64,000 nucleotides of DNA, taken from the NCBI GenBank assembly GCA_030431525.1, contig JAUIJC010000026.1:1-64000 (forward strand), in the 5' to 3' direction. A program made the position numbers and the translations under genes. The stretch comes from Bacteroidia bacterium (GTDB lineage: Bacteria; Bacteroidota; Bacteroidia; Cytophagales; JAAEPT01). The notes below the pieces were generated by a model. The model did not search any database, was not told the DNA's origin, and saw only the letters and a list, made by a program, of their open reading frames with translations. Positions 6,530 to 64,000 of the stretch are shown piece by piece; position 1 is the first letter of the stretch, and the number at the start of each line of letters is the position of its first letter.

Positions 6530-6604
6530 AATGTAGGCTTTTTGCTCTTGCAAGATAACCGTTTAGGTTCCCTTAAAGGTTCGACATATTTTCATTTATT
6601 CTCC

Positions 6605-6636
6605 TTGTTTCTTAGAGAACCAATCCTCTACCTTTG
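6605..6636 (+). promoter_or_regulatory. Bacteroidota-type promoter of the cobalamin operon
   Basis: A -33 element TTG (6605-6607) and a -7 box TACCTTTG (6629-6636), which matches TAnnTTTG exactly, are separated by 21 bases. Transcription would begin near 6643, immediately before the riboswitch. Confidence 0.7.
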
Positions 6637-6644
6637 CCCCCGCA

Positions 6645-6816: not shown

Positions 6817-6978
6817 TTGTGTGTTTATTCAGGCTTTCGGTGGAAAGGCAGGAATTGAGACAAGCAGTTTGCCCCATTTTCTCTGACATACCGGTTACTT
6901 AGGGACTCAGGCTTCAGGCGCGTCTTCATTCCCCGCACACAATCGAAAGCTCATCGGTTCACCAATTTACATTGACCA

Positions 6979-8874
6979 ATGAGCAAAAGATTTACTCTCG
7001 CGGGATTACTGGCATTATCGGCTGGTGTATCCTACGCTCAACACGACACGACCGACTATTCGGTCAACCTTGAAGAAACTGTAATCACAGTTTCCAAAAT
7101 CCCACTTCCTTCACGTAGTACGGCCAAGCCGACGCGCATCATCGGTCCCGATGAGATTGCCCGCAACCAAGGCAAGGACTTGGCGCAATTGCTGGAGGCT
7201 CAAACGGGCATCAGCGTGAACGGTGCGAACAGCAATCCAGGCAAGGACAAGAGTATTTTCTTGCGAGGAGCGTCCAGCGCCTACCTGTTGATTTTGGTGG
7301 ATGGCATTCCAGTAAATGACCCATCGGGCATCGGTTCGCATTTTGACATCCGTTTGTTGCCTTTGGAGCAAATCGAAAGGATTGAGATTCTGCCAGGAAG
7401 CCAATCGGCGCTGTATGGTTCAGATGCCATGGGTGGTGTCATCAACATCATCACCAAGAAGGCCTCCAAGAAAGGTGTGGGCTTGTCAGGCGGAGCGTCC
7501 TTTGGTTCGTTCAACAGTTCCTCTGCCAATGTGAATGTTTCTGGTAGCCACAAGAAGTTCGATTATGTGGTGGGCTACCAATATGATTTCACGGAGGGCA
7601 TCAGCGAAGCGCTGGATACGACCAGTGAGCAGTCTTTCGACAAGGATGGTTTTATTCGCCATTCCTCCCAAATCAAATTGGGCTACCAACCAGTGAAGAA
7701 TCTGCGCATCCAGCCCTTTATACGATGGTCGGATTTTGATGGAAATTATGATGCGGGCGCCTATTCCGATGCGCCAAACACGTATTCTTCGACCTTCCTC
7801 AACCCAGGGCTTCGGGCAAACTACAAGCGTAAAGACCTGTCCATCATCTTGGGGTATAATTACAACAAGACGGACAGGACATACCGCAACGCTTACGGAG
7901 ATTCCTTCTACAAGGGGCGTTCTCATCAAACGGACTTGTTGGTGTCTCATCCCATTGGCAAGCACCTGATTTTGTCGGGTGGATTGTATGTTCAGCAAAC
8001 TCAAATGCTGGATACAAATGCCACGGTGAAAAACCCTGAGAACAGCGTGATTAGCCCGTATGTGAGCGGTATCCTCAAGGGTTGGAAGAATTTCAACGTG
8101 GAGGTGGATTACCGCCTGACCAATCACAGCGCCTACGGGAACAACTCCTTGTTCACTTTTGCGCCAGCCTATTACATCACGGATAATTTGAAAGCTTTTG
8201 CTTCCTACGGTACGGGCTTCAAGGCGCCTTCCTTGAGCAATTTGTACGGCCAATGGGGACCAAATGAAAACTTGAAGCCACAGCGAAGCCAGACCTTGGA
8301 AGGAGGCCTGCGCTATAAAACCAGTGGTCAGCGAAGCATTGAATTGCAGGCTACGGTGTTCAAGCGGAAGGTCAAGGATGTCATCATCTATACCTTTTCT
8401 AATGGCTATTTGAACCAAGACCTTCAGCATGACCACGGACTGGAGTTGGACGCCACCTTTAACCCAACCGATAATATTCAGATTAGGGGAGGCTATGCCT
8501 ATGTGACGGGAGAGGTTTCTACAAAAAATGCCCTTGAAGCGGATACGTCATATTACAACCTGATTCGCCGTCCGAAACACTCATGGTCGCTTGGTGTGCG
8601 CTACCAGCCAAGCAAGCTGGTAGAGTTTTCTGTGAATACCCGCTACATCGGTGACCGCACCGACTATGCCTACAATCCAGTGACCTTTTCCAACGATGAG
8701 GTTCAGCTGGATGCCTATTTCTTGTTGGATGTTTATGCGCAATACCGTGTAAAGGACTCAGGTTTGGTCTTGTTCGGTCAGCTGAATAACCTGCTCGGCC
8801 AAACCATCATTGAGGCAAATGGTTATACGGGATTGGGCACCACGGCCAAACTGGGCTTGCGCTTTGATTTGTAA
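6979..8874 (+). CDS. btuB: TonB-dependent outer-membrane corrinoid receptor (BtuB-like)
   Basis: A 631-residue TonB-dependent receptor with a signal peptide (cut near SYAQ, residue 21), a TonB-box-like EETVITVSK (about 32-40), a plug domain (about 48-160, with FLRGASSAYLLILVDGIPV and GSDAMGGVINIITK), and a 22-strand-type barrel ending in an aromatic/leucine residue (LRFDL). It moves corrinoids across the outer membrane using TonB energy. The assignment to cobalamin rests on the riboswitch directly upstream and the cob genes downstream; length is close to E. coli BtuB (about 600). It is the first gene of the operon, about 160 bases after the riboswitch. Confidence 0.93.
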   Translation: MSKRFTLAGLLALSAGVSYAQHDTTDYSVNLEETVITVSKIPLPSRSTAKPTRIIGPDEIARNQGKDLAQLLEAQTGISVNGANSNPGKDKSIFLRGASSAYLLILVDGIPVNDPSGIGSHFDIRLLPLEQIERIEILPGSQSALYGSDAMGGVINIITKKASKKGVGLSGGASFGSFNSSSANVNVSGSHKKFDYVVGYQYDFTEGISEALDTTSEQSFDKDGFIRHSSQIKLGYQPVKNLRIQPFIRWSDFDGNYDAGAYSDAPNTYSSTFLNPGLRANYKRKDLSIILGYNYNKTDRTYRNAYGDSFYKGRSHQTDLLVSHPIGKHLILSGGLYVQQTQMLDTNATVKNPENSVISPYVSGILKGWKNFNVEVDYRLTNHSAYGNNSLFTFAPAYYITDNLKAFASYGTGFKAPSLSNLYGQWGPNENLKPQRSQTLEGGLRYKTSGQRSIELQATVFKRKVKDVIIYTFSNGYLNQDLQHDHGLELDATFNPTDNIQIRGGYAYVTGEVSTKNALEADTSYYNLIRRPKHSWSLGVRYQPSKLVEFSVNTRYIGDRTDYAYNPVTFSNDEVQLDAYFLLDVYAQYRVKDSGLVLFGQLNNLLGQTIIEANGYTGLGTTAKLGLRFDL

Positions 8875-8930
8875 CTCAAAGTCTAACGGAGAATTTTCTG
8901 AAAGTAGTTATTGGTTAGGAACCACAGAGG

Positions 8931-9030
8931 ACACAGAGGAATGGAGGAAAAGAGACTCCCATCCTCAAGACAGGTTGTGTTTTGAGCCTAAGGGGCCTCC
9001 TTTTCTCCTTTCCTCTGTGCGCTCTGTGGT
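8931..9030. repeat. CCACAGAG-type inverted repeat, copy 1
   Basis: The ends accacagaggacacagagg and cctctgtgcgctctgtggt form an imperfect inverted repeat around a variable middle. Related elements lie at 30177-30240, 39836-39920 and 61081-61192. Just outside, ctgaaagtagtta (about 8898-8910) and cagaaagtagtca (about 9044-9056) form an imperfect direct repeat, possibly a target duplication. It sits inside the cobalamin operon, between btuB and the DUF6580 gene. Confidence 0.7.
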
Positions 9031-9082
9031 CCATTTACCTATTCAGAAAGTAGTCAATGTCTAAACTCTAAAGTCTCATAAA

Positions 9083-9688
9083 ATGAAAAACACCCTCAAC
9101 TTCCGCTTCCTCACCTTGGTCGCCATCATCCTCGTTGCAGGAATCATTCGCCTTTTGGCCGTTAATGACAGCTTGGGACCAATGTCCCAGTACACCATCA
9201 TTGGGGCAATGGCCTTGTTTTCTGGCGCCTATTTCCAACACAAAGGAAAATCCTTTGCCACACCATTGGCCATATTGCTGGTCAGCGATGTTGTGCTGAT
9301 GCAAACGGTTTACAGCAAGTTCCAGTCGGGACTGTTGTATGACGGTTGGTACTGGACTTATGGTTCATTCTTTATCATGGTGGCCTTTAGCCGTTGGATG
9401 CTCAGAAAAGTGACTGTTTCCCGTTTCTTGGGAAGCGCCGTTGGTACCGCCGTGATTCATTTGCTGGTGTCCAACTTTGGCGTTTGGATTCAAGGTGGAT
9501 GCACCGATGCACTGACTGGTCAGCCATACACCATGGATTTGGAAGGCCTGCTCCGTTGCTATTACATGGCACTTCCCTACATGAAAAACATGATGGTGGG
9601 CAACCTTGTTTGGGGCACCGTTTTGTTTGGCGGATTCGCCTTGGCGCAACGACGTTTTGAGGTGCTAAAACCAGCGGTTGTCAAATGA
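9083..9688 (+). CDS. DUF6580-type membrane protein, putative corrinoid transport component
   Basis: A 201-residue hydrophobic protein with about five membrane segments (roughly residues 8-25, 38-55, 60-75, 90-108, 112-130 and a last one near 170-190). It resembles the DUF6580 putative transport family, whose size and topology recall S components of ECF-type vitamin transporters. Its position between btuB and a BtuF-like gene in a riboswitch-controlled operon suggests inner-membrane passage of corrinoids, particularly as no btuC/btuD genes are present here. It overlaps the next gene by ATGA, so the two are translationally coupled. The transport role is inferred. Confidence 0.8.
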   Translation: MKNTLNFRFLTLVAIILVAGIIRLLAVNDSLGPMSQYTIIGAMALFSGAYFQHKGKSFATPLAILLVSDVVLMQTVYSKFQSGLLYDGWYWTYGSFFIMVAFSRWMLRKVTVSRFLGSAVGTAVIHLLVSNFGVWIQGGCTDALTGQPYTMDLEGLLRCYYMALPYMKNMMVGNLVWGTVLFGGFALAQRRFEVLKPAVVK

Positions 9689-41904: not shown

Positions 41905-44900
41905 TTATTTACGTCTTAAAGTGAAATCCCCGTTAATTTTCCCTTCAGAATCAATTGTGTACGCCCCACTAATTTCAACTCTTCCAAGTGAGGAAGGATT
42001 ATTCCAATCACCTGTAATTTGCTTTTCACCCAATATTGTAAAAACAACATCAAGATCATTTTCACCCAAAAAATCTTGAAACTTTTGTTTATTAATTAAT
42101 AACCCTTTATTCCCTTCATCCCATACAGAAGGATCAAAAGCCACTATTCCTCCTGTTTCATCGTACAAGTACCCTTCACGCTCACCAAAGTTTAACTTCA
42201 TACTTTTAGCAATAAAACTACTTGGTAGAGTAATGGATAATCCTTCATCCATTGAGCAATCATAATCACCACTTTCTTTTAAGAAGTTTTCTGCTGTCAC
42301 CCTAATTTTCGCACTGACTTTTCCTTCTGTTTTTTGATATGAGGGATTATAGGTCTCCTCATAACTGTAGTAAGGTTGCCTTGTATACTCAAATGCAGGA
42401 GCCCAATAACTCTCGCCTAAGAAATATTCATATCTGTCGCTTGACTCAGGCATCCATCGTCCCATAAAATCTTGCTCTTTCGCCCATTGAAAAAAAGCTT
42501 TCTTTTTTGACTTTTTTACTATGTAGCTTCTTAATTGAATCCAGATGTTTTTCTTAGGAGTTCCGTATTCATCTTCTCCAAATAGTTTCTCTTCCCTCCA
42601 ATTAAAATTCCCTTCTAGTTTCATCCATATATTACCATTATTATCAGCAATCTGAATAAGTTCGTGAATACGAGGTATGTTGTCATCTTGGGTCATCCAT
42701 TCTTCATCTGTCAATGAAGAGTTTATACTAGCGTCAATTTGAAATACATCTTTAAATTGAGGTAGTGGAATATTTTTATTACTCCTTATAAGTATACTAG
42801 GATCAATATCTCTTCTGAATTTATCATGCCAAGGCCCCTGACATATACTGTATCCATCTTGGTTGAATTGGACTTTATATTCAAAATTATCTGTTAAGCG
42901 AGCTAGAAACTCATGCAATGCAATCCATTGGTACTTTTTCCCTATTCTTTCCTTTTTGTTTGTTTCGCGGCCAATACCAGAACTTCTTCGAATGTAAGTA
43001 TCAAATTGCCCAAATCGTTCAATACTCCATCCTAAATCAAATACTTTTTTAAGAATCAGTCTTTGTAAAATTGACAAATCAAAAGATTGATTATCATCAG
43101 CCTTTTTTGTTGAATTTGAAATTAGATACTGATTAATAGATTGATTAAAAAGCGTTTGCTTTTCTCCATCTAAAGAGTCTAATAAATTTGATTTAAACTT
43201 TTCAATATCATTTTCAAGAGATGTAATAAGTTCAGGTGATAATAAGTCATTTCCCGTTTCAAGTTGATCTTTGAAAAAACTCTCATACTTCAACATTTTC
43301 TCATAAGCATTAAATAACTCCTTGTTTTTCCTGTTTAAGCTGGCTTTGAACTCCACATAACTCTGCTGTTCCCTCACATTGTTATTCGTCCAATTGGTAG
43401 AACCTGTATTAGTTCCTATTATGTACCTCGAGAAGTCCTCAAAACCTGTGATAGAATCTATCATGTGTGATTTTGTCCACTCGATTTGAGACAACTCTTT
43501 TTTATCTTCAAATCCATATTTTTTAGCTTCTTCTTCTGAAATAGCTTCTACCCAATCACTATTATATGGAGGTCTAATATTATCAACAGTGATATTCAAC
43601 TCAATATTCAGGTGCAATGCTCTTTCTATACAATTTCTGGCATAATCTCTCAGCAAAAAGTGAATTGGTGGATTGTTCTCTGCAAAAACCAAATCATAAA
43701 CTTTTTGAGCTATAATTTTTACAGCCTCTAGATCGCTATTCAGCATTGTACATCCGTATGCTACTGCATATAGCCTTTCGGAAACATAGAGATCATTCAC
43801 ATTATGAAATTTCTCTAACAGATCAACCAACGTAGTAGTTCTATTTTTCAACAGCTTCACCAAAGCTTTGGTTACATCATCTCTTAAAAAACGATTTGAT
43901 GTTGTTAAAAACCAAGAAAGAATAGTTGCAGATAGCAATAAAGCCTCATCACTAATGTGCGTTTTATCGTCTTCTGACCATGCCCATTCAACATAACTAT
44001 CAATTATACTATTGTCTTGATACCAATTGAAAATTGGTATTGTCCATTTATAGTCGCGTTCTGCAATTGACAAGTCCCATAATACCTTATGCAAATAAGA
44101 AGCATTATAGATATGTTCTGGGTCTGAAGCAACAGTGAGAAGAACATTTAAAAATAGTGAATGATAATCAACACCATTTTCACCTAAACTTTTCCTATAA
44201 ACATCATTTTTCTCTTCATTAATTGCTTCATACTTACGCCATATAAGGCTTTCAAAAAACGATTGTACAATAATGTCATGAGATTTTACTTCTGGAAAAT
44301 ATTCATATAGCTCTTTACCAAACCGTTCTGGTACAAGTATAGATAAAGCCTGAATTTCAGTTTGATAATACCAAAGCTTATCTTCCGTGAAGACGTGTTT
44401 GAAATCTTCACTTTCGAAACTCTCTTCTGTAAAAAAATTAAGCAGGTAATTACCTTTTAAGAAATCGCCAAACCGTTCGTATGCAAACTCAACACTATCA
44501 ACCCAGTTATTTGAAAGTTCATCAAACTGCATACTTTCCAATAATACCCCTTCTGAAATCATGTGAAATAAAAGAGAATTACTCCAGCCTCTAGCTACAA
44601 CAATTTCTTGACAAAGTTTATGGGCTTTTGGTCTGAGAGCACTTCTACTTCGTTCCTTTAGAAAAAGCTCTGCAAATTTTTTGAGCGATAAAGAAAGAGG
44701 GTTCAATTTAGGGTCTTCATCAATTTTTTCGCAAATGGCTATGTTTTTCTGTTCAATAAATAAATCAAAAACGGCAGAGAATTTCTGAGCTCCTTTCGGA
44801 AGTCTATGATAACCTTTTTGTGAAAATGCTTGACAAAATGTCTTTAAAAATAAGGGGTTACTAAATTCGGTATCCAAAATTGGTACGCTAAATAACTCAA

Positions 44901-46497
44901 TCTTATAATAATTAAAATACTCTTTTACTGCTCCATAAATCTGTCCCTCAAATCCTCTATGGGGCAATTCCAAGATTGTTTTTTCATCTATTAAGTTCTT
45001 TTCAATAATGTGTTCATCAAAAGGACTTCTAACACTAACAACTAAACCAATCCAAGGGTATTCTTTGATATCTGCTATGAACCGAGCAATATGATTTTTC
45101 CAAAGTTCCTTTCCTGCTCCTTCATTCAAAGCATCAACAACAATCAAACACCGTTTATTTTTTTCTTTCCCCAGCTCATTAAGTTGTTCTAAAAATGCTT
45201 TTTTGGAATACTCTTTTAGCTCAAGAAGAGAAAGTATCTGACCCCAAGGATCCGATAAATTAAAATGCTGACCAAATATCATAAGAGTAGGTATCCCTAA
45301 TGCTATTCTTTCAACACTAATATCACAAAGTAAATGGGTCTTTCCTTGTCCTGCTTTTCCTTTCAACAATAAAAAAGGTGTGTTGGACAATTCGGCTACC
45401 AATCCATCGCTATAATCTCTCAGTTTCAGAATTAGACTTAGAAGTTCCCGTAAATAATGCTCTTGATTACTGTACTTACTATTTTTTTCTTCTCCCTTTC
45501 CAAGGTCTATTAACTTAAAATACTGTTCATCGATGACCTTATAGCAATTGGAACAAACCTCACTAATAGTATCCCATTTTATTGACTGGTCAATAGGGAC
45601 TGAAAATATTTCAAAGTACTCTTTCCATAGTTCTTCAAGAGCATTTTCAATATTTGTTTGAATAGATGTAATATCATTTCCACCCTCACCATAGAACTTA
45701 ATATCTTGAGATCGTTTTTTTATTTCTTCGAAAAGCCCTGTAACCTGTTCTTCAAAATCTTTGTTTCGTGCTAAAGCATTAAAATATTTGTTGTAATCTA
45801 ATTCTACGTTTGCTTCACGAGTGTATCTCGGTCCAGCATTACTTATTATACCTTTCGAATGTTCTAAGAACCAATTTCGACTTAATGGTTTATTATCATA
45901 TTTTTCAGGGTCAATTTCAACGGGAATGTCATTTTGCTTTAAAAAGGAATAGACTTTTTCTATACTTATCGCTCCTAGACACCGATGTAGCTGCCATAAT
46001 AATATAGCGAATACATTACCATTTTCATCAAAAACAGGAGCTCCAGAAAAACCAGAATATTCCGTTGAAGGATTAAAATCATTGCATCGTAAATCTGTAT
46101 CAAAATCGGATAAGTCATTTGGTCTAGGACGTGTAATTGTTCCCATTAGGTTTTCGCCACCTAATTGACCACTTTCAGTATTTGGAAAACCAAAAGAATA
46201 CCATTTTTCTTCACTATGAATGGGACACTTTAAAAGTGTTAATGGGTCTATATTCAACTCTTCTTTCAATTTCAAAATAGCCAAATCCAATTCTCCTTCA
46301 AATTGTACTATTTCGACCTCATGTTCCTCTGTCAAGTCATTAATAAATGATATATGAATTTGTTCATTTTCTTTCCTTGATTTCCTTACCACATGAGCAG
46401 CTGTTAAAATCAAATCATTCCCAATGTAAAAACCTGTGCCTTTATCTCTCGATAAAATCTTGCAAATTGAATCTTGATGCGTATTACTGTTTTCCAT
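41905..46497 (-). CDS. Trypsin-like protease / STAND NTPase fusion, Avs1-like anti-phage effector
   Basis: A 1530-residue protein with an N-terminal trypsin-like domain (about 1-195): H35 in LTAAHVV, D71 in GELDLAIL and S151 in GFSGAPVFD form a complete catalytic triad. A STAND/NACHT-like NTPase follows (about 370-620): Walker A LKGKAGQGKTH (K386) and Walker B CLIVVDALNEG (D455, E459). The remaining 900 residues are alpha-helical at first and end in a beta-rich tail, expected to sense a phage protein. With the MBL-fold gene immediately upstream (stop and ATG abut), the set equals the parts of type I AVAST (Avs1a MBL hydrolase, Avs1b protease, Avs1c STAND), with b and c apparently fused. Strongly AT-rich. 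Type assignment is by domain content only. Confidence 0.85.
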   Translation of the reverse strand: MENSNTHQDSICKILSRDKGTGFYIGNDLILTAAHVVRKSRKENEQIHISFINDLTEEHEVEIVQFEGELDLAILKLKEELNIDPLTLLKCPIHSEEKWYSFGFPNTESGQLGGENLMGTITRPRPNDLSDFDTDLRCNDFNPSTEYSGFSGAPVFDENGNVFAILLWQLHRCLGAISIEKVYSFLKQNDIPVEIDPEKYDNKPLSRNWFLEHSKGIISNAGPRYTREANVELDYNKYFNALARNKDFEEQVTGLFEEIKKRSQDIKFYGEGGNDITSIQTNIENALEELWKEYFEIFSVPIDQSIKWDTISEVCSNCYKVIDEQYFKLIDLGKGEEKNSKYSNQEHYLRELLSLILKLRDYSDGLVAELSNTPFLLLKGKAGQGKTHLLCDISVERIALGIPTLMIFGQHFNLSDPWGQILSLLELKEYSKKAFLEQLNELGKEKNKRCLIVVDALNEGAGKELWKNHIARFIADIKEYPWIGLVVSVRSPFDEHIIEKNLIDEKTILELPHRGFEGQIYGAVKEYFNYYKIELFSVPILDTEFSNPLFLKTFCQAFSQKGYHRLPKGAQKFSAVFDLFIEQKNIAICEKIDEDPKLNPLSLSLKKFAELFLKERSRSALRPKAHKLCQEIVVARGWSNSLLFHMISEGVLLESMQFDELSNNWVDSVEFAYERFGDFLKGNYLLNFFTEESFESEDFKHVFTEDKLWYYQTEIQALSILVPERFGKELYEYFPEVKSHDIIVQSFFESLIWRKYEAINEEKNDVYRKSLGENGVDYHSLFLNVLLTVASDPEHIYNASYLHKVLWDLSIAERDYKWTIPIFNWYQDNSIIDSYVEWAWSEDDKTHISDEALLLSATILSWFLTTSNRFLRDDVTKALVKLLKNRTTTLVDLLEKFHNVNDLYVSERLYAVAYGCTMLNSDLEAVKIIAQKVYDLVFAENNPPIHFLLRDYARNCIERALHLNIELNITVDNIRPPYNSDWVEAISEEEAKKYGFEDKKELSQIEWTKSHMIDSITGFEDFSRYIIGTNTGSTNWTNNNVREQQSYVEFKASLNRKNKELFNAYEKMLKYESFFKDQLETGNDLLSPELITSLENDIEKFKSNLLDSLDGEKQTLFNQSINQYLISNSTKKADDNQSFDLSILQRLILKKVFDLGWSIERFGQFDTYIRRSSGIGRETNKKERIGKKYQWIALHEFLARLTDNFEYKVQFNQDGYSICQGPWHDKFRRDIDPSILIRSNKNIPLPQFKDVFQIDASINSSLTDEEWMTQDDNIPRIHELIQIADNNGNIWMKLEGNFNWREEKLFGEDEYGTPKKNIWIQLRSYIVKKSKKKAFFQWAKEQDFMGRWMPESSDRYEYFLGESYWAPAFEYTRQPYYSYEETYNPSYQKTEGKVSAKIRVTAENFLKESGDYDCSMDEGLSITLPSSFIAKSMKLNFGEREGYLYDETGGIVAFDPSVWDEGNKGLLINKQKFQDFLGENDLDVVFTILGEKQITGDWNNPSSLGRVEISGAYTIDSEGKINGDFTLRRK

Positions 46498-47724
46498 TTA
46501 GATTTGAATTTCGGTTGCTACTTCCAACGAGTATTTATAATGATTTTTTAATGCTTCATCCTCAAATAATTCGATTATATGAGGCAAAGAATAATTCATA
46601 TAAATAGTTCTTTCAAAGACCTTTTTAGGTATAGGTCTATTGATTATTCTTGCTATTGTTTCTTTATCAGGATGTTTATGCCCTCTTGGATGTTTTCCAT
46701 TAGTAGAGATTAGAAACTTTTGGCTATCAATAAGCTTTAATAGATTGGGACTAGTATTACCTTGAGCTCCATGATGAGAAATTTTTATAGCATCAAACCA
46801 AAGAGGTGTTTCTGTACATAAAGGGTAAAGTTTTTTTAATTGTTCTTCAATTATCTCGGAGTGTGAATCTGCCAAGAATAGATACTGATGCTCTTTTGAT
46901 TTTAAGATGAATGCGATGGAGCTACCGTTCGCTACTGAATTATCCGGTGAGTAATTATCAGAAGAGGACAATTCTTCAACGTCTTGAATTGATAGTTTAC
47001 ATTCAGAAGAAATCGACTCTTCTTGAATTTTTATTAAATCAGACTCCAGTTTTTGAGCATAAAACTCAAAAGCATCATCAAATATATCATCTTCAGGTAC
47101 GTTATCGATATTTAATAACTCTTCAATTTTATCTTCAAATTCAGATTCTAGATTTTCTAATTTTTTATGGTTTGGAGATAAAAGTATTATAGACACGTCT
47201 GGTGCTATTGATATTTCCTGCTTATTATCAATACTAATAGCTAAATCATTAAAGTCCTTGTTCCAATTATAGTTTTGCTCCAGAATTTTACTCCCTAGTC
47301 TAATAGCTTGTTTTGCTCCAATCTCCTTTTCTTCACTTTCATTTGATGTAGTTTTATTACATTCAGCCATAAAGGCCTCTGTCTTCAACCTATCCTTTGC
47401 TGATAAGCTTTTACTATTCCTTTTTTTAAACTGTAAATGCCTGTAAGAGTTATGCCAAATTTGATTTATTGATACAATTTCAGAGTTTGTCGCTCCATTT
47501 TCTTCGAGAAACTTACTTGCACTTTGAATATGATCATTATCATAGTGTGTAATAATAAATCTATCCAGGTTATCGATCTCTTTAAGTTTTTCCTTTATGT
47601 CTTTAAAGCCAAAACCACAATCAATTAATAGATTGACTTTTTTCTCTTTACTTGAATTAACCCTTATCAGTAAAGTATCTCCATAACTTGCAGGAAACAT
47701 GGTGATTTTCTCTTTCTCTTCCAT
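46498..47724 (-). CDS. MBL-fold metallohydrolase, Avs1a-like
   Basis: A 408-residue cytoplasmic metallo-beta-lactamase-fold protein, similar to the ComEC/Rec2 hydrolase branch. Metal motifs are THYDNDH (H60, D62, D64, H65), FLADSH and ISHHGAQG, followed by STNGKHPRGHKHP. An acidic, helical insertion (about 120-265) interrupts the fold. Its stop codon directly touches the start of the protease/STAND gene, so the two are co-expressed. In type I AVAST systems an MBL hydrolase is encoded with a protease and a STAND protein. AT-rich, unlike the surrounding genome. Confidence 0.85.
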   Translation of the reverse strand: MEEKEKITMFPASYGDTLLIRVNSSKEKKVNLLIDCGFGFKDIKEKLKEIDNLDRFIITHYDNDHIQSASKFLEENGATNSEIVSINQIWHNSYRHLQFKKRNSKSLSAKDRLKTEAFMAECNKTTSNESEEKEIGAKQAIRLGSKILEQNYNWNKDFNDLAISIDNKQEISIAPDVSIILLSPNHKKLENLESEFEDKIEELLNIDNVPEDDIFDDAFEFYAQKLESDLIKIQEESISSECKLSIQDVEELSSSDNYSPDNSVANGSSIAFILKSKEHQYLFLADSHSEIIEEQLKKLYPLCTETPLWFDAIKISHHGAQGNTSPNLLKLIDSQKFLISTNGKHPRGHKHPDKETIARIINRPIPKKVFERTIYMNYSLPHIIELFEDEALKNHYKYSLEVATEIQI

Positions 47725-56357: not shown

Positions 56358-56810
56358 ATGACCCTCGATGAAATCGACCACAAAATCATTTCCCTATTGC
56401 AGGAGGATGCCCAACGGCCATACACTGAAATTGCGGAGCGGGTCTGTGTTTCTCCAGGTACAGTCCACGTTCGGATGCGGAAATTGAAGCAATCGGGAAT
56501 CGTTACGGGCTCTACGCTCAAGCTTGATTATTCAAAACTGGGTTATGACATCAAGGCCTTTTTGGGTATCTATTTGGAGAAAAGCGGGCTTTATGATGAT
56601 GTCGTAGACCAGTTGCGCGACATTCCTGAGATTTTGTCTATTGATTACACCACGGGAGATTACAGCATTTTTGTGAAAATCATTTGCCGAGATACCAATC
56701 ATTTGAGGGAGGTGCTCCACGACAAAATCCAGCAAGTCAGGGGAATTGACCGCACGGAAACCATTATTTCCTTGGAGGAAACCTTGGATCGAGAGGTGAA
56801 ACTGGATTAA
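56358..56810 (+). CDS. Lrp/AsnC-family transcriptional regulator
   Basis: A 150-residue regulator: an N-terminal helix-turn-helix (about 5-60, LDEIDHKIISLLQEDAQRPYTEIAERV) and a C-terminal RAM ligand-binding domain (about 65-145). Such proteins respond to amino acids and regulate nearby and distant genes. It is divergent from the RDD gene, with a shared 75-base upstream region, and overlaps the convergent porP-like gene by four bases. I use the ATG at 56358, two codons inside a TTG start. Confidence 0.93.
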   Translation: MTLDEIDHKIISLLQEDAQRPYTEIAERVCVSPGTVHVRMRKLKQSGIVTGSTLKLDYSKLGYDIKAFLGIYLEKSGLYDDVVDQLRDIPEILSIDYTTGDYSIFVKIICRDTNHLREVLHDKIQQVRGIDRTETIISLEETLDREVKLD

Positions 56811-57694
56811 ATCCCAACGTTAAGGGTCAGCTCCAAGGAAGGAATTTGAATCACTGGTGAATTCGAGAATGGAGCAAAATAGGACATGCCAATGCCTGTA
56901 GCCTTCGTGAATCGTGTTTTTGTTTTTACCCCCACATAGCCCATCATGCCTTGCTCATGGTGGTAGCCAAGCCCCAACTGAAATAGGTCTTTGAAAGCGC
57001 CAATGGCTTGCAGGGCCAGTTCGTTCCTCACTCCATTTGAATGGATGCGGTAGTAAACAAATGGCGTCAGCGAGTAGGTCGGATTCAACTGAAAGCTGTA
57101 GCTACCATAGGCCAAATAATTAGAAGAGGCTGTATAGGTGGCTATGATGGGGCGCAGCTCAGGAGAGGTGATTTGGTTGATGGCAAAGCCAGCCCGCATT
57201 TTTTTGGAGTAGAGGACAATACCCAAATTCATGTCGAAGGCCGATGCTGAATTATTTGTGGTCGAGGTATTTCCCTGATTATTCATGCTGATGACTCCCA
57301 CACCAATTCCTCCAGAGAGCAGGTATTCTTCCGACAGTTTTAGCTGTCCTGTATAAGTCAGGTTCGCCCAAGTTTCTTGGATCAAGGGGCCATTGTTATT
57401 CGTCAGAAAAGAGCCTCCAAGTACATGACTGAAACTTTCCTGCCTATTAGGCTGTCCCAACTTAAGTGCCCCGTTGAAAGCTTGGGTGGACACTTTTTTC
57501 ATGGCACCCACATAGGAGAAATTTCCAAAAACTACATTTGCCTTCAGGTCGTTCATCTCTCGTTCCGCAGGGTTTTGGAACGCCATGGTGAAAAATCCTT
57601 GGTTGAAGAGTCTGGGAATGAGGTAGTAATCCTGGGCCAGAGACGCATGGCCGCAACAAAGTATCAGAATCAATATGAAAAGACGTCTCCTCAC
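56807..57694 (-). CDS. PorP/SprF-family type IX secretion membrane protein
   Basis: A 295-residue outer-membrane barrel protein with signal peptide (cut at SLAQ, about residue 20). It begins QDYYLIPRLFNQGFFTMAFQNPA, typical of PorP/SprF proteins, and continues as alternating strands (GGSFLTNNNGPLIQETW, SGGIGVGVISMNNQ, YVGVKTKTRF). PorP/SprF members are needed for export or anchoring of particular T9SS substrates, especially those with type B sorting domains. It is divergent from an ECF sigma/anti-sigma pair whose last two proteins carry type-B-like domains, implying a functional link. Confidence 0.9.
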   Translation of the reverse strand: MRRRLFILILILCCGHASLAQDYYLIPRLFNQGFFTMAFQNPAEREMNDLKANVVFGNFSYVGAMKKVSTQAFNGALKLGQPNRQESFSHVLGGSFLTNNNGPLIQETWANLTYTGQLKLSEEYLLSGGIGVGVISMNNQGNTSTTNNSASAFDMNLGIVLYSKKMRAGFAINQITSPELRPIIATYTASSNYLAYGSYSFQLNPTYSLTPFVYYRIHSNGVRNELALQAIGAFKDLFQLGLGYHHEQGMMGYVGVKTKTRFTKATGIGMSYFAPFSNSPVIQIPSLELTLNVGI

Positions 57695-57903
57695 TGGGGA
57701 TTTTTATGTTGAAGTTAGGCCAACATTAAGCGGAATTTAAATGTTCTCGTAAAATCTTATTTTTTTTGGAATAAATCGCACTCTAGTACGCTTGTAAGTC
57801 TTTATGTTATTTTCGTCTATAATTGTATTCGGGACTTACTTTGAACCTCTCTGGGCTATGTATGGTTGTGGGGAGGGAATAATAGGAGTGGAAAAATCAG
57901 CGG

Positions 57904-58473
57904 ATGGATAACTATTCGGAACAAAAGGTACTGGCCATGTTGGAGGCGGGCGAGGTCAATCAGGCCATCGCCTTGCTCTATAAGCATGAGCTTCCCAAAA
58001 TCATACGCTATGTACAAAAGAACAGCGGAAATGAGGATGATGCCTTCGATGTATTTCAGGAAGCTGTTTTAGTCCTGCACCAAGAGGTGACGAAGGGGAA
58101 TCTTGACCTGAAGGTTGGCGGGTTTTTGTACACCGTCAGCAGGAATGTGTGGTTAAATACCTTGAAGAAACGCTCCAAGGAGCTCTTAAGTGATGAAGTG
58201 AGGGACACAGAGCCTAGCAAAGTGGAGTTCCTCTCGGATATGATGGAAGTTGAGAAAAAAAGGGTGCTGGACAAGGTTTTTTCGATGCTTTCGGAAAAAT
58301 GTCAAAAAATTTTGCACCTAACCGTTTACCAAAGCATATCCATGGAGGATGTTGCAGAAAGGATGGGGTACGCCACGGCAAACACTGCCAAGACGGCGAA
58401 CTATCAGTGTAAGCAACAATTGATGAAAGTGGTAAAGGACAATAAGGAGGCGTTGGACTTTTTGTTAAGGTAA
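57904..58473 (+). CDS. ECF-type RNA polymerase sigma factor
   Basis: A 189-residue sigma-70 family factor of ECF size. Sigma region 2 spans about 25-95 (KIIRYVQKNSGNEDDAFDVFQEAVLVL and FLYTVSRNVWLN) and region 4 spans about 125-180 (VFSMLSEKCQKILHLTVYQSISMEDVAERMGY). It is followed 27 bases later by an anti-sigma-like gene, the usual arrangement in which the anti-sigma factor holds it at the membrane. The upstream region holds a weak -7-like sequence but no clear ECF promoter. Confidence 0.93.
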   Translation: MDNYSEQKVLAMLEAGEVNQAIALLYKHELPKIIRYVQKNSGNEDDAFDVFQEAVLVLHQEVTKGNLDLKVGGFLYTVSRNVWLNTLKKRSKELLSDEVRDTEPSKVEFLSDMMEVEKKRVLDKVFSMLSEKCQKILHLTVYQSISMEDVAERMGYATANTAKTANYQCKQQLMKVVKDNKEALDFLLR

Positions 58474-58500
58474 CTGAAGCGTTTAAACGGGGTTGGAATT

Positions 58501-59637
58501 ATGAAGGAAGAGTATCGCATTTTGGAATTGATAGACCATTACCTTTCAGGACAGCTGGAAGGAGAGGCCTTACATAGCTTTGAGCAAAGAATGCAAGCGG
58601 ATCAGGCTTTCCGTGAGCAGGTGGAGGTTCAGCAAATGACTAACAATTTGCTGGCGGTGAAGGAGCAATTGCCTTTGATGGAGGAAATGCAACGCTTGCG
58701 CAAGAAGTCACAGTTCCGCAAAAAAACTATTCGTTATGGAATGGTTGCAGGCGGGATTGGCCTTGGTCTTGCTACTTTTTTGTTTTTGAACGACGGAAAT
58801 TCTCCACAGGGTCCAGATTCGGATTCCCTTGTGGTGGTTCAAGAAACCAAGACGCCAGACAGACAGCCATCAAGTGAAACCCAGTCTCCTTCGAAAGAAG
58901 TTGTAAAGGAGGAAGAAGCTGACATGCCTACTTCCAAAGCTCCACAAAAGGAGACTGAGAATAAGCAGACTCAAGCAAAAGAGACAAAGGAAGAAACACA
59001 AAAGGAAGTAGCTGTTGACTCATTGCCTGAGACCTCCAAACGAGATATTAACAAAGAAGAAATTGCGGAAAAGAAGGAAGCTCGCAAGGAAGATGATGTC
59101 GTGGTGACAAAGGAAGCTGTTGTTGATTGTGATGAGGTTACTATTGAGGTTCCATTCGAAGTGGCCAATACTTGTCAGGGTGAAGCGACAGGAAGCATAG
59201 AAGTTTTTCCAAAAGAAATTCAAGGTGGGCGTTTACCTTACGAATTCTCTCTTGATAGTAAGGAGAAGTTCACGGATAGAACGCAATTCGAGGACTTGGC
59301 CAAAGGAGAGCACCGCTTGTTTGTCAGAGATGGACAGGGTTGTGTGAAGGAGGTCTTGCCAAAGCCTCATATCTTTGCACAACGTTGCGCTCCAGAAGTG
59401 GCATTTAACCCATCCTTCGGGGAAACTTGGCAGGTTCCAGTACCTGAAGGCCAGCAGGGAGATCTGCAAATTATGACCGCCTCTGGCGATAAGGTTTACG
59501 AAACCGCTGTGTTTGAAGGAGATGAGTGGGATGGTCGAAGCTCAAGCGGTGAAGAACTTAAAGCGGGTTATTATTTGTTCCAACTCAAGCTATCGGACGG
59601 TAAACTGATTCAAGGAGGAATCACTATCATCCGTTAA
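58501..59637 (+). CDS. Membrane anti-sigma-like protein with SprB-like repeat and T9SS type-B-like C-terminus
   Basis: A 378-residue protein of unusual architecture. Residues 1-75 are cytoplasmic and helical (LELIDHYLSGQLEGEALHSFEQRM), like the sigma-binding part of anti-sigma factors. A membrane helix spans about 77-97. A 110-residue low-complexity K/E/T/Q linker crosses the periplasm. Then comes a SprB-like beta repeat (about 215-285, TCQGEATGSIEV and LPYEFSLDS...LFVRDGQGC). A domain like the gliding-motility/type B T9SS C-terminus closes it (about 300-378, AFNPSFGETW to WDGRSSSGEELKAGYYLFQLKLSDGK). No signal peptide. It could sense secretion or surface state and release the sigma factor. 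The function is inferred. Confidence 0.88.
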   Translation: MKEEYRILELIDHYLSGQLEGEALHSFEQRMQADQAFREQVEVQQMTNNLLAVKEQLPLMEEMQRLRKKSQFRKKTIRYGMVAGGIGLGLATFLFLNDGNSPQGPDSDSLVVVQETKTPDRQPSSETQSPSKEVVKEEEADMPTSKAPQKETENKQTQAKETKEETQKEVAVDSLPETSKRDINKEEIAEKKEARKEDDVVVTKEAVVDCDEVTIEVPFEVANTCQGEATGSIEVFPKEIQGGRLPYEFSLDSKEKFTDRTQFEDLAKGEHRLFVRDGQGCVKEVLPKPHIFAQRCAPEVAFNPSFGETWQVPVPEGQQGDLQIMTASGDKVYETAVFEGDEWDGRSSSGEELKAGYYLFQLKLSDGKLIQGGITIIR

Positions 59638-59644
59638 TGATTTG

Positions 59645-60727
59645 ATGAAACTCATTTATTCCATATTGATTTTATTCTTGGGTTTTTCGCCCTCGGCACT
59701 TCGTGCCCAAGAAGTTTTTGAGATACCTGACTCAGCATTCAGAGGAATGTTGGATTACTATTGGCCAGAATCATTTAATGAAGATGGCTTGATGTATGTG
59801 GATTCTGCCGTCAAGATAAACGGCAATATTCTCTATCATGCTGGTGATATTCTTTCGTTCGAAGGTCTCCAATATTTTCCTTTGCTAGAGGGGCTTACGG
59901 TTCGTGGAAGTAAAGTAGAGGTCTTCGATTATCCATTGCCAAGCATGTATCACATTGACCTTAGAGATAATAAGCTGAAGGTTTTTGAGGTGAGTGGTTT
60001 GTCTCCCAGTTTGGAATTGGCTTATGTGCAAGGGAACGAACTAGAATATGTTCCAGACCTATCAGGTTTTGAAGTTTTGCGTAGCGCAGATTTTTCTAAC
60101 AACAGGTTGACCTTTGAGGATATTGTACCTGTTTACCCTTGGGGGCAGGATACAGCCTTTGATAGGTTTCTCACGGTATTTCCCCAAAAAAGGATAGTCT
60201 TGGAGGATTCCATCGTGGGAACCATTGGCTATGAGGCCACCATTTCATTGGGTGTTGATGAAAATGTTTCAGGCAATGTCTATGAATGGTATAAGGACAG
60301 CGTGTTCTTCACCACAACTGATGAAAACAAACTTGTCTTTGAGGAATTGACAGAGGAGGACGCTGGCGATTATTTCTGTAGAATCACCAATACAGCCATT
60401 CCAGATAGCAATGCTTTTTTGACTACCGAGGTGGTTCGCTTGTCCGCAGAGGCTTCTGACGAAAGCGATTTCCTTTTGGAAAGTGACGTTGATCCATACG
60501 AGCAAAATCTTGAGTTCTCTCCAGACGGGGATGGCATCAATGACAGGTTCTACTTGCCCTATGAGGGCTCTGCAAAAATATTGAGCATGGCGGGTGTTCC
60601 CGTAAAAACATTATCTCTTCCAGCATTTTGGGATGGAACCGATAATAATGGTGCATTCCTTCCAACTGGATACTACTACATTCAGGTCAATGATGGGCAG
60701 TTAGTGCCAATCACGATCTTCCGATAA
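59645..60727 (+). CDS. LRR/Ig-like secreted protein with T9SS type B domain
   Basis: A 360-residue exported protein: signal peptide (cut near LRAQ, residue 22), a leucine-rich-repeat-like region (about 60-150), an Ig-like domain (about 185-265; EWYKDSVFFTT and DAGDYFCRITN), and a type B T9SS C-terminus (about 285-360, FSPDGDGINDRFY to GYYYIQVNDGQ). It starts five bases after the anti-sigma gene ends, so the two are one transcript. It is a plausible partner or ligand of the anti-sigma protein's outer domains and of the PorP/SprF protein. Confidence 0.9.
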   Translation: MKLIYSILILFLGFSPSALRAQEVFEIPDSAFRGMLDYYWPESFNEDGLMYVDSAVKINGNILYHAGDILSFEGLQYFPLLEGLTVRGSKVEVFDYPLPSMYHIDLRDNKLKVFEVSGLSPSLELAYVQGNELEYVPDLSGFEVLRSADFSNNRLTFEDIVPVYPWGQDTAFDRFLTVFPQKRIVLEDSIVGTIGYEATISLGVDENVSGNVYEWYKDSVFFTTTDENKLVFEELTEEDAGDYFCRITNTAIPDSNAFLTTEVVRLSAEASDESDFLLESDVDPYEQNLEFSPDGDGINDRFYLPYEGSAKILSMAGVPVKTLSLPAFWDGTDNNGAFLPTGYYYIQVNDGQLVPITIFR

Positions 60728-61244: not shown

Positions 61245-63065
61245 CTAAGCCTCAGAAATCGCCTCCGCGCTCTGTTTTAAAGTATAAAGCAGGAAGAACT
61301 CATTGGAGAGGTCCAAGCCGAATTGCCCGTTGATAAAGGAAACGTATTGTCCGAGAATCGGCCATTTCTCTTGTATCCACGGATGGCTTTGAAGTTCAGT
61401 GTTGACCTTGAAGTCTTGCGGAGGCATGAACTTACCTTGCGTCTGTAAAGCATCTAAATCAGTTTTTGCTTGCCTACAGGTATCCCGCCACCAGATTAGG
61501 TTAGGCTCGTCTGCATCAAGCTCATCATCCTCTAAACAGCCCCAGAGATAATCATAATAGCCGATGAACATGTCTTTGTTCATGTCGAAGGATTCCTCCA
61601 AACCAGTCAGCAGGTTTTCCTTGAAACTCTCACCGTTTTCTTGCCCTTGAGAAGCCAAATCAATGGTTTCTTCAAGCAACTGCCCAAAGAACTCCTCAGC
61701 CTCCAGTCGGCCTAAGCCCATGGAATGCGCCAAGGTGATTTGCAATCCAATCACAAGGTTGATGGCAGTCTCAGGATTCCAGCCTTCGCCTTTGGCCACA
61801 AATTGATGGTAGGCGATTTGACTGGTAACATCCAACAGCTCCGCACTCACTTTGTGTGCGTTTTCCGAACCAAGGTTGAAGAGGTAATAGTCGTTGATGC
61901 TTTGGGGTTGTTCTCCAAATGATGCTTCAAAGGATGGCTTCAAGAAATGCTCGGTATTAAAGCTATTCGTTTTCAGGAACAGCAATAGCTCATTCTTGTC
62001 GGCGCCAGTGCGCGTAAAGATGAACTTATCGATATGCCCTTGAGCCAAGGTTTCCTCAATCCATGCATGAAGCTTTTCCTCAAAGAAGCCTCGGAAGTCT
62101 TCAGTCTTGATGGTTGCGAAAACCCAATGCTTGGAGAAAAGCGCAGGATGTTGGTTCTCTTGGGTAGGAGCGTTCTCTGAAATGACCTCATGGACAGCAT
62201 CCAACAAAGAATGCTTTCCAGCGGAGTCAAAGACAAGTTGCCAAATCAACACACCACCCGTTCTTTCAATCGCCAACTTGGTTTTCTCCTTAATGGACGG
62301 GATGCCATTGTAGTAAACGGTGTGGTCTGGCGTCAGGTCAATTTGGTCCAACGATGAAGCCTCAGGATGATGCTTGAGAATATCCTCATAGGTCATAAAT
62401 CCTGCAGAAGCTGGCTTGGTGTAGGGGTTGAAGTTGTAGCCATAAAATGGCAGTCCAACATTCAGCTTTTCCGTAGGGATTCCCTTTTGGCCATTCCAAT
62501 AATTGATGTGTTCCTCTACCGTGTTTAAAGTCGAGTGCGGACCACGCTTTTCAGGTGCCCAATGTCCCGTCTCATCGTAGGACATCATGTTGATGAAATC
62601 GAAATGGGTCAAGGCGCCATCACTGATTTTCTCGGCGTTCCAAAGGGCTACGGCACCAGAAATCTCCATTCCATGCTTTTGGGTTATACCCGCCAAATCA
62701 GCCACGAATGCCTCGTAATCAGGTCCGATATTCTCGCCTTCCAAGTCCACGTCAATGCCGTCCAATTTGAATTGCAATAGGAACCGTTCAATCTTTTCGA
62801 GGAATGCGGGGCGATGAGCATCACTTTGGAGCTGTTTCCAGCGCGGGCCTTCCACGATGGCTCCTCCAAGCGACATCATCACTTTGGTATTATTGTCATG
62901 AGCCAATTCTACCACCTGATGCAGGTTGTCGGTAGGACCCAGATTGCCTTTATCATCCAACGGATTGATAAAGGCAATGACTAAATGAGTGATTTTATCG
63001 AAAGGAATGCTTCGGGCATTTTCCAAAAAGCCTCCCCAGTTGGGTAAATATCCAATTACTCTCAT
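61245..63065 (-). CDS. GH18 chitinase-like protein without signal peptide, fused to a novel C-terminal region
   Basis: A 606-residue protein. Residues 1-290 form a glycoside hydrolase family 18 barrel: MSLGGA and the full catalytic motif DGIDVDLE (D102 to E109, E109 the acid), then MMSYDETGHW and WQLVFDS. The C-terminal 300 residues are helical and unrecognised, with VIGLQITLAHSMGLGRLEAEEFFGQLL and IGYYDYLWGC. The same type of region occurs in the neighbouring gene at 63275. No signal peptide is present, as the barrel starts at residue 2, so it acts in the cytoplasm or leaves by a contractile or other leaderless route. It should cleave beta-1,4-N-acetylglucosamine polymers. Confidence 0.88.
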   Translation of the reverse strand: MRVIGYLPNWGGFLENARSIPFDKITHLVIAFINPLDDKGNLGPTDNLHQVVELAHDNNTKVMMSLGGAIVEGPRWKQLQSDAHRPAFLEKIERFLLQFKLDGIDVDLEGENIGPDYEAFVADLAGITQKHGMEISGAVALWNAEKISDGALTHFDFINMMSYDETGHWAPEKRGPHSTLNTVEEHINYWNGQKGIPTEKLNVGLPFYGYNFNPYTKPASAGFMTYEDILKHHPEASSLDQIDLTPDHTVYYNGIPSIKEKTKLAIERTGGVLIWQLVFDSAGKHSLLDAVHEVISENAPTQENQHPALFSKHWVFATIKTEDFRGFFEEKLHAWIEETLAQGHIDKFIFTRTGADKNELLLFLKTNSFNTEHFLKPSFEASFGEQPQSINDYYLFNLGSENAHKVSAELLDVTSQIAYHQFVAKGEGWNPETAINLVIGLQITLAHSMGLGRLEAEEFFGQLLEETIDLASQGQENGESFKENLLTGLEESFDMNKDMFIGYYDYLWGCLEDDELDADEPNLIWWRDTCRQAKTDLDALQTQGKFMPPQDFKVNTELQSHPWIQEKWPILGQYVSFINGQFGLDLSNEFFLLYTLKQSAEAISEA

Positions 63066-63274: not shown

Positions 63275-64000
63275 TTAGTGCGTCATAGTCTCAAGGCTCC
63301 TCCTCAAGGTGTAATAAAGCACCAAAACGAAGTCTGGTCCATGAAGCAACTGGTGGTTGATGAAATCGGAATAGACCTCATACTGCTCCCATTTTTCAAG
63401 AGTGGATTCAGGGATTGGTCCGCCCTTGTAATTGATGTTATTGTCGCAAGGGTAGAGGCGGTCTTGTTCCTTCATTTCAAGATGAACCAAGGCACCTTTC
63501 TGACAGGCTTCCACCCATTGGTTCAACCATGGCTCGTCAAAGCTTTCGCCTTCTTCCACCATGTCAAGGATGTATTCGCAGTAGCCCACCAAGTTTGCCT
63601 TCTGCTCTTGGAAGTTGTTTTCCAGACTTTTCTTGAAGGCTTTTTGCCATACAGAAGCATCGCCATCGGCGCTTTTGTCCAAATCGAGTAGGGCGAACTG
63701 AGCGCCAAACTTATAGTCGAAATATTGGAAAAGCTCATCAAGAGAAAGACCCGCCGATTGCATCAATGTCAAGTGCATTGGAATACCAGCTTCCACGGCG
63801 GACTCAATTTCCCATTCCTCGCCAGCGCCAACCAATTGTGAGGCCACAGAGGAACATGCCGAAAGCAATACCTCCGACACATTTGGTGTATGATTTTGGG
63901 TGATGTAGTGGAAAATGAAAAAGTCGCATACATCGTCCACCGCCTTGCCATCAGCAATGTTTTCCCGCTTGGCCCAAGCCTCCAAAGCAGGGATAAATTC
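63275..64000 (-). CDS. Paralogue of the GH18 protein's C-terminal region (cut by window edge)
   Basis: The frame is open to the window end on its 5' side (EFIPALEAWAKREN... begins at the edge), so only the last 241 residues are seen. They are helical and align loosely with the C-terminal half of the preceding protein: GIPMHLTLMQSAGLSLDELFQYFDYKFG matches the block around VIGLQITLAHSMGLGRLEAEEFFGQ, and LVGYCEYILDMVEE matches FIGYYDYLWGCLED. The missing N-terminus may also be an enzyme domain. No signal peptide can be judged. It is not a full gene in this window. Confidence 0.7.
   Translation of the reverse strand, partial: EFIPALEAWAKRENIADGKAVDDVCDFFIFHYITQNHTPNVSEVLLSACSSVASQLVGAGEEWEIESAVEAGIPMHLTLMQSAGLSLDELFQYFDYKFGAQFALLDLDKSADGDASVWQKAFKKSLENNFQEQKANLVGYCEYILDMVEEGESFDEPWLNQWVEACQKGALVHLEMKEQDRLYPCDNNINYKGGPIPESTLEKWEQYEVYSDFINHQLLHGPDFVLVLYYTLRRSLETMTH

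Follow-up and report, generated by a model that had tools for sequence, protein, structure and literature searches.

A candidate carrier-linked anti-sigma surface signalling cassette in a member of the Cytophagales

Within a 64,000-nucleotide stretch of a Bacteroidia bacterium genome (GCA_030431525.1, contig JAUIJC010000026.1, positions 1 to 64,000, hereafter the window), four neighbouring genes encode a PorP/SprF-family outer-membrane barrel, a divergently transcribed ECF sigma factor, a membrane anti-sigma ending in SprB-like and type B-like (CHU_C) domains, and a LRR/Ig secreted protein with a type B-like C-terminus (Table 1). The preliminary description, made from the sequence alone, had reported these four genes, and this observation is confirmed, being further strengthened by the family data presented below.

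Table 1. Features of the four-gene locus, with positions in the window
Positions	Strand	Feature	Supporting observations
56807..57694	-	PorP/SprF-family outer-membrane barrel (295 aa), signal peptide, 14 predicted strands, last strand ending at residue 294 of 295 (no C-tail)	PF11751 E=3e-24 (86.4 bits, gathering cut-off 22.3); TIGR03519 below its cut-off (70.5 of 90.55 bits); AlphaFold2 pTM 0.71; best solved-structure matches chain F of two T9SS translocon entries (read as PorV; top match E=2e-9), then FadL
57695..57903	.	Divergent intergenic region between barrel and sigma; expected promoters of both	Position
57904..58473	+	ECF sigma factor (189 aa)	Sigma70_r2 E=4e-7 and sigma70-ECF superfamily TIGR02937 2.3e-15, both above cut-off; region 4 weak in Pfam
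58501..59637	+	Membrane anti-sigma with type B-like C-terminus (378 aa)	Immediately downstream of sigma (overlapping or within a few bases of it in most homologues); N-terminal region matches anti-sigma models NF052375 and NF010501 in some homologues
58501..58716	+	Residues 1-72: helical N-terminal domain, presumed sigma-binding	AlphaFold2 helices 3-15, 21-33, 35-72
58738..58788	+	Residues 80-96: single inner-membrane helix	Hydropathy 1.9 (family median 2.09); positive flank on the N-terminal side in 53/63 homologues
58789..59127	+	Residues 97-209: disordered polar periplasmic tether	pLDDT below 50 for 70-207
59128..59388	+	Residues 210-296: SprB-like Ig domain with four conserved Cys	Cys 210/225/281/296 at 90% or more in the family alignment; lineages with two Cys keep a pair 70 apart, pointing to C1-C3 and C2-C4 bonds
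59389..59634	+	Residues 297-378: type B-like (CHU_C) domain lacking the DGDG motif	CHU_C 25.1 bits
59642..60727	+	LRR/Ig secreted protein with type B-like C-terminus that has an SPDGDGINDRF motif (361 aa), presumed cargo of the barrel; more likely start the ATG one codon on, at 59645	Ig_2 4e-5 and CHU_C 9e-4, both below cut-off; homologous cargo carry LRR_4 up to 5e-24 and CHU_C up to 5e-8; signal peptide by eye

Taken alone, the C-terminal reading of the anti-sigma was marginal, since it scored just under the curated CHU_C cut-off of 27 bits and only weakly for SprB (E=0.03), and its TIGR04131 score was also under the cut-off. Across 40 homologues, however, 32 matched CHU_C (best 2.5e-10), 26 SprB (best 4e-8) and 18 the type B model TIGR04131 (best 3e-7) at a threshold of 0.01; profile scores leave the assignment of the window's own protein to these models undecided. 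In addition, the family profile found the very C-terminus of GhpA, a solved Aureispira surface adhesin, at E=8.7e-35. AlphaFold2 predicted an Ig-like domain at residues 219-285 and a four-strand sheet at residues 319-377, which is how type B CTDs are described (PMC12618676). A fold search with the full anti-sigma model returned only generic Ig matches, with TM-scores of at most 0.21 to the query, although GhpA and PorU were among the first four. The distance from the membrane segment to the first conserved Cys is ~113 residues in the window and 87-133 residues in the family, with 70% polar composition. No Sec signal peptide was found, in this protein or in the family, the internal helix at residues 80-96 in the window's protein being the only membrane segment.

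The anti-sigma belongs to a large family present in four families of Cytophagales, with 1-13 full-length copies in the nine genomes checked. Among 63 full-length homologues, a sigma gene was found beside 62 and a PorP beside 61, while 61 had a related secreted protein within 6 kb, and all four genes recurred together at 12 further loci. Chance co-location was rejected, as roughly 2% would be expected from PorP density (20 per 4.4 Mb). A phylum-wide scan listed no full-length homologue outside the order in the genomes sampled, the matches in other orders covering only the SprB/CHU_C part or only the N-terminus. Within genome contigs, a first protein-based scan found nothing and a first alignment was too diverse to scan with, whereas a closer subset gave six named loci. 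The presence of a T9SS was of no use as a discriminating criterion, SprA being found in 367/390 genomes of the order.

Two departures from this arrangement were observed. The second copy in the same genome has its sigma/anti-sigma pair and its barrel/cargo pair on different contigs (contigs C13 and C14 of this genome do not overlap at their ends), and one Sporocytophaga variant has an anti-sigma that lost the type B-like domain. In the latter cassette, the PorP belongs to the ordinary clade.

The cassette barrels are themselves distinctive. In the tree, 72 cassette barrels, including that of the window, formed a clade (100/100) from which 27 of 28 other PorPs were excluded. The window's barrel is a PorP/SprF protein by PF11751 but a divergent branch by TIGR03519, and is predicted to fold as a 14-strand carrier like PorV. 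It lacks the periplasmic Cys-bearing C-tail that links gliding-type PorP/SprF to GldK (PMC12635249); a Cys in the last 40 residues occurred in 8/59 cassette barrels against 14/24 others (p=7e-5). Likewise, the acidic DGDG-type motif of type B signals ([DN]xDG) was absent in 63/63 anti-sigmas, a different conserved motif (FNPxxGExW) standing in its place, but was kept in 32/46 cassette cargo (p=6e-17, the sequences not being independent). The LRR protein has the signal peptide, type B-like end and nearby PorP gene of a type B cargo, although its CHU_C score is under cut-off in the window.

Sequence divergence was then compared between parts of the cassette. PorP distance tracked the anti-sigma C-terminal part and the cargo C-terminal part after allowing for sigma (partial r 0.58 and 0.61), while sigma tracked the N-terminal more than the C-terminal part after allowing for PorP (0.27 and 0.09). 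Copies duplicate and diverge as units (within-genome r 0.5-0.8, p about 0.0005-0.001), and within genomes PorP tracked the N- and C-terminal parts equally. Since all four genes travel together, co-divergence alone cannot separate contact between C-terminal domain and barrel from common inheritance, and is only suggestive. The anti-sigma and cargo share the SprB-like plus CHU_C module, with cargo being hit by the anti-sigma profile down to 1e-44, but matched anti-sigma and cargo C-termini were barely more alike than unmatched ones (20.9% against 20.2%, p=0.02), too weak a difference to be used as proof of a shared carrier.

These results partly support the interpretation of the preliminary description, in which a tethered mimic of a secretion signal lets the anti-sigma read T9SS occupancy or cargo binding and pass it to the sigma factor. 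That description had set out in advance two outcomes that would count against it, and neither was encountered: homologues are almost always beside a PorP and a type B-like protein, and the C-terminal domain matches type B/CHU_C profiles in the family and is predicted to fold as the sheet described for type B domains, so that a domain unrelated to type B was rejected. The proposed tethering without a signal peptide holds in the family, and the term mimic gains support from the replaced DGDG motif. By contrast, binding of this domain to this barrel, and T9SS occupancy as the signal, stay inferences, and the paralogue expansion (up to 13 per genome) together with a more freely evolving LRR region of the cargo fit ligand sensing at the surface at least as well.

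We favour, with moderate confidence only, a cell-surface signalling cassette built from type IX secretion parts. In this view, the anti-sigma would hold the ECF sigma in the cytoplasm, cross the inner membrane once, reach across the periplasm on a ~105-residue tether, and dock its SprB-like plus type B-like end on the dedicated, tail-less PorP/SprF carrier, which would also secrete the LRR protein and hold it on the cell surface. A change of the carrier-LRR complex, through loading of the carrier or a ligand caught by the LRR protein, would alter the docked domain, the pull or cleavage of the tether would free the sigma, and the sigma would transcribe its own operon (sigma, anti-sigma, LRR protein). 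Our analysis establishes the gene content, its conservation, the topology, the domain homology, the dedicated barrel clade and the loss of the secretion motif, whereas the docking, the nature and direction of the signal, the release step and the autoregulation are inferred; no interaction has been shown, no complex was modelled, and binding and inhibition of the sigma by the anti-sigma were not assayed. The reading agrees with reports that type B substrates stay bound to their own PorP/SprF carrier (PMC9143113, PMC12618676, PMC12635249), and with the Sporocytophaga cassette in which an ordinary-clade PorP coincides with loss of the type B-like domain, while the second sigma/anti-sigma pair of the same genome, not beside a barrel, the barely greater likeness of matched anti-sigma and cargo C-termini, and the promoter motif described below, not clear in the window, argue against it.

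Other readings appear less likely. The anti-sigma could act as an export-backlog sensor, as in the preliminary description, its domain staying in the periplasm and competing with unsecreted cargo for carrier or translocon, with secretion load as the signal and cargo supply as the response. The domain does resemble a tag fixed in the inner membrane without signal peptide, and lacks a motif needed for secretion of SprB, for which each of five motifs is required (PMC12618676). Nevertheless, up to 13 divergent cassettes per cell, each with its own barrel and LRR protein, suit many specific receptors better than one load sensor; all genomes have one T9SS (SprA once or twice), and about 30% of cassette cargo also lack the strict DGDG motif, whose absence need not mean no export. 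About as unlikely is that the anti-sigma end is itself carried out through the translocon and held on the surface by the barrel, the protein spanning both membranes: the module shared with real cargo, the long tether, sufficient when stretched, and the precedent of Dma1/2 of Bacteroides, which span both membranes with a tether and a C-terminal barrel (PMC13088901), speak for it, but the DGDG motif is missing and a T9SS substrate still fixed in the inner membrane is, to our knowledge, unprecedented.

Least likely is an ordinary sigma/anti-sigma control of an adhesin operon, in which the C-terminal Ig domains are a borrowed periplasmic sensor that never touches the barrel and linkage reflects co-regulation only. 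Genes of an operon are indeed expected to be co-inherited, CHU_C and SprB domains are common in these genomes, and a working-looking copy without the C-terminal domain exists. However, the barrel belongs to a clade of its own tied to this anti-sigma, the domain is kept with a private motif in all 63 full-length homologues, the one variant without it has a different barrel clade, and other anti-sigmas of the same genome with a similar N-terminus have neither this domain nor a PorP.

A more far-reaching possibility, less likely than not, is a separate class of trans-envelope signalling, each cell running up to a dozen parallel surface receptors in which a T9SS carrier barrel doubles as signal transducer, holding an exported LRR sensor outside and, by a tethered copy of the secretion tag, the anti-sigma inside, with the tag end possibly threaded to the surface so that one polypeptide runs from sigma factor to cell exterior.

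Signalling across the cell surface through sigma/anti-sigma pairs is known, and the closest design is the Dma (dual membrane-spanning anti-sigma) family of Bacteroides thetaiotaomicron (PMC13088901), also from Bacteroidota, with an ECF sigma gene beside it, an N-terminal anti-sigma domain, one membrane helix, a long disordered tether and an end part meant for the outer membrane. Dma, however, has its C-terminal beta-barrel fused and is not reported with a cassette cargo of T9SS, whereas here the barrel is a separate gene and the anti-sigma ends in two Ig-like domains; the protein is not a Dma and works like one at most. In FecI/FecR/FecA-type signalling (PMC9249621), an outer-membrane barrel, an inner-membrane anti-sigma and an ECF sigma are also encoded together and pass an outside signal to sigma, but such a system was rejected here, no FecR domain or TonB-dependent receptor being matched by Pfam in the anti-sigma or barrel, and the barrel being a T9SS-type carrier. 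Type B cargo with cognate carriers (PMC12618676, PMC9143113) likewise lie next to a PorP/SprF gene, but here the carrier forms its own clade, mostly lacks Cys in the C-tail, is divergent rather than downstream, and is tied to sigma/anti-sigma. In the PorA-PorXY-SigP pathway of Porphyromonas gingivalis (PMC7712824), a T9SS CTD protein at the surface affects an ECF sigma, but through a two-component system, PorA being a soluble exported CTD protein that interacts with PorV, with no anti-sigma bearing a CTD. The RsgI/sigma-I system of Clostridium thermocellum (PMC12203970) has several paralogous anti-sigmas, each with its own outer sensor, for polymer sensing, but in a Gram-positive organism without outer membrane and with unrelated domains. 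Our searches of open-licence literature, which did not extend to subscription papers, turned up no report of an anti-sigma with a type B domain.

If correct, this reading would join two fields kept apart so far, namely type IX secretion, where PorP/SprF proteins are known only as carriers and anchors of type B cargo, and sigma/anti-sigma signalling, where Bacteroidota are known for FecR/SusC and Dma designs. It would give a function to a whole PorP clade, explain the many CHU_C-bearing paralogues in Cytophaga and Sporocytophaga, and offer a candidate for how contact-dependent cellulose degraders feel surfaces or polymers, Cytophaga hutchinsonii having five cassettes and working genetics. Finally, the region before sigma was examined for a shared promoter element: a GTTAC-N16-TGTA motif, not convincingly present in the window, was found 35-40 nt before sigma in many homologues, on the forward strand only, with 16 perfect occurrences against 0.15 in shuffles.

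The four genes singled out as a module in the preliminary description are present in the window, with a PorP/SprF barrel gene read leftwards and, divergently and in this order, an ECF sigma, an anti-sigma and an LRR/Ig secreted protein, confirming that observation. Pfam supports the barrel (PF11751, 3e-24) and the sigma (Sigma70_r2, 4e-7), while the tag-like ends of the two other proteins are just under or under curated cut-offs when taken alone. The coordinates of these genes and of the other features considered below are compiled in the following table.

Coordinates of the cassette genes in the window, of related loci and of neighbouring features
Locus	Coordinates	Strand	Feature
Window	56807-57694	-	PorP/SprF barrel
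Window	57904-58473	+	ECF sigma
Window	58501-59637	+	Anti-sigma
Window	59642-60727	+	LRR/Ig secreted protein
Window	41905-46497 and 46498-47724		1530-aa protein with a trypsin-like domain at its N-terminus, adjoining a metallo-beta-lactamase-fold protein
Window	61245-63065 and 63275-64000		GH18 protein and neighbouring protein without Pfam match
L010 (own genome, contig C14)	291-2004		Second sigma/anti-sigma pair
L148 (own genome, contig C13)	649-2764		Cassette-clade barrel plus short secreted protein
L011 (own genome)	6186-7688		Other ECF sigma/anti-sigma pair
L012 (own genome)	4779-6868		Other ECF sigma/anti-sigma pair
L154 (Sporocytophaga MAG G191)	8066-8365 and 7627-8052		Anti-sigma in two frames
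L155 (G191)	8750-9109 and 7995-8480		Anti-sigma in two frames
L165 (G191)	6211-6663 and 6668-7339		Anti-sigma in two frames

Searches with the anti-sigma recovered one full-length paralogue in its own genome, one in the second genome of its family and dozens in 390 genomes of its order, the full-length members being held by four families (labelled f1, f5, f16 and f20). A census in nine genomes gave 1-13 essentially full-length copies each. The genomes examined include Cytophaga aurantiaca DSM 3654 (G016, whose contig C42 is NZ_KB903662.1), two Sporocytophaga MAGs (G102 and G191) and, by inference, C. hutchinsonii (G075), in which the position of SprA at 32.7 kb fits the tag CHU_0029 (PMC7906972).

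Conservation of the neighbourhood, which had been set in advance as a criterion for or against the module, was examined by retrieving the flanks of 63 full-length homologues and classing their neighbours by iterated profiles. The sigma is directly upstream in 62 (the missing one being at a contig end), a PorP is present in 61 (57 divergent, 4 on the same strand), and a secreted protein sharing the SprB-like/CHU_C end lies within 6 kb in 61, directly downstream in 48. The exceptions are a contig end (locus L074), locus L042, where the cargo would lie off the contig, and the C14 copy of the window's own genome. Many of these loci are from related genomes and are not independent counts, but they span four families and many paralogous lineages at 22-34% identity. 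Twelve further cassettes from the same genomes are complete, two of them with a broken anti-sigma frame; anti-sigmas broken into two frames occur in several copies in one Sporocytophaga MAG (G191), representing pseudogenes or sequencing errors. By comparison, with 20 PorP genes in the 4.4 Mb genome, about 2% of random places would have one within 2 kb.

A tree of 72 cassette PorPs and 28 other PorPs from G075, the window's own genome (G000) and the variant loci placed the cassette barrels in one clade (100/100), with 27 of the 28 others outside. The only other PorP inside this clade is that of contig C13 of the window's own genome, beside a short secreted protein with a cassette-like end. The second sigma/anti-sigma pair of this genome, on C14, has no barrel beside it and is followed by a terminator-like hairpin. 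The ends of the two contigs do not overlap. The simplest reading is one cassette split in two, its halves now apart. The window barrel is predicted as 14 strands ending one residue before the stop, and its best solved matches are 8gl6_F and 6h3i_F, barrel chains of T9SS translocon structures that we take to be PorV, followed by FadL. Cassette barrels rarely have Cys in their last 40 residues (8/59 against 14/24 for the others), whereas in SprF such a tail links to GldK (PMC12635249).

The anti-sigma comprises a helical N-terminus, one membrane helix with the positive side inwards, a tether of 87-133 polar residues, an Ig-like SprB domain with four conserved Cys and a predicted four-strand C-terminal sheet. 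Fully stretched, ~105 residues would reach about 37 nm (at 0.35 nm each), enough to cross the periplasm, but the relaxed chain would be much shorter, and we infer that docking at the outer membrane would put it under tension. The end domain keeps W343-x-G345 and the G-Y/G motifs of type B signals but never the [DN]xDG motif, present in 32/46 cassette cargo, in place of which stands FNPxxGExW. In F. johnsoniae each of five type B motifs is needed for secretion with SprF (PMC12618676), and this systematic replacement, rather than decay, points to a changed role. Other ECF sigma/anti-sigma pairs of the window's own genome (loci L011 and L012) have a similar anti-sigma N-terminus but different periplasmic parts, with no PorP seen nearby.

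Distance matrices of PorP, cargo C-terminus, anti-sigma C-terminus and sigma correlate at 0.81-0.92. After allowing for sigma, PorP still tracks the anti-sigma C-terminus (0.58) and the cargo C-terminus (0.61), and after allowing for PorP, sigma tracks the anti-sigma N-terminus (0.27) but hardly its C-terminus (0.09). This is the pattern expected if the N-terminus meets sigma and the C-terminus meets the barrel, but the contrast vanishes within single genomes and is considered suggestive only. It does show that the genes duplicate and diverge as a unit.

In addition, four orthologous Sporocytophaga loci (L151-L154) display a natural swap, in which sigma is followed by an anti-sigma that stops after the SprB-like domain (244-246 aa; broken into two frames in L154), then by a canonical type B protein (TPNGDNINDEW) and an ordinary-clade PorP. 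Although this is one evolutionary event, loss of the type B-like end goes with exchange of the barrel, as expected if the end fits only the dedicated barrel.

Before sigma, usually 35-50 nt upstream of its start, many loci (e.g. L045, L054, L093 and L094) carry a GTTAC-N16-TGTA motif, with 16 perfect cases in 66 regions against 0.15 in shuffles, and 2 on the reverse strand. The exact form was picked from the same data and orthologues repeat, making the count optimistic, but the strand and position bias are nonetheless clear. The motif is not clear in the window itself. We read it as the promoter of the sigma operon, probably read by its own sigma, which is an inference.

Type B substrates are known to remain bound to their own PorP/SprF carrier (PMC9143113, PMC12635249). 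In the view proposed here, the carrier would have two clients with related ends, an exported LRR protein and a tethered, non-exported one that is the anti-sigma, and its state could thus be read by the anti-sigma and passed to sigma. While the conserved cassette, its dedicated barrel clade, its divergence as a unit and the motif replacement are observed, this reading of the carrier's state is inferred. The state may be loading, as proposed in the preliminary description, or a ligand on the LRR protein; we lean slightly towards the latter, which is favoured by the many divergent copies in polymer degraders. The earlier interpretation is partly supported.

The nearest design is that of Dma, which combines an anti-sigma domain, a helix, a disordered tether and a fused barrel (PMC13088901). 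No report of an anti-sigma of the present type was found in the open-licence literature, subscription journals not being covered. The cassette differs from Dma in having the barrel as a separate T9SS-type carrier with an exported client, and FecR/TonB parts are absent.

Elsewhere in the window, the C-terminal part of a GH18 protein looks, by eye, related to the neighbouring protein without Pfam match, suggesting a possible repeat or carrier domain. Finally, the adjoining genes for the protein with a trypsin-like domain and the metallo-beta-lactamase-fold protein are reminiscent of conflict-type gene pairs.
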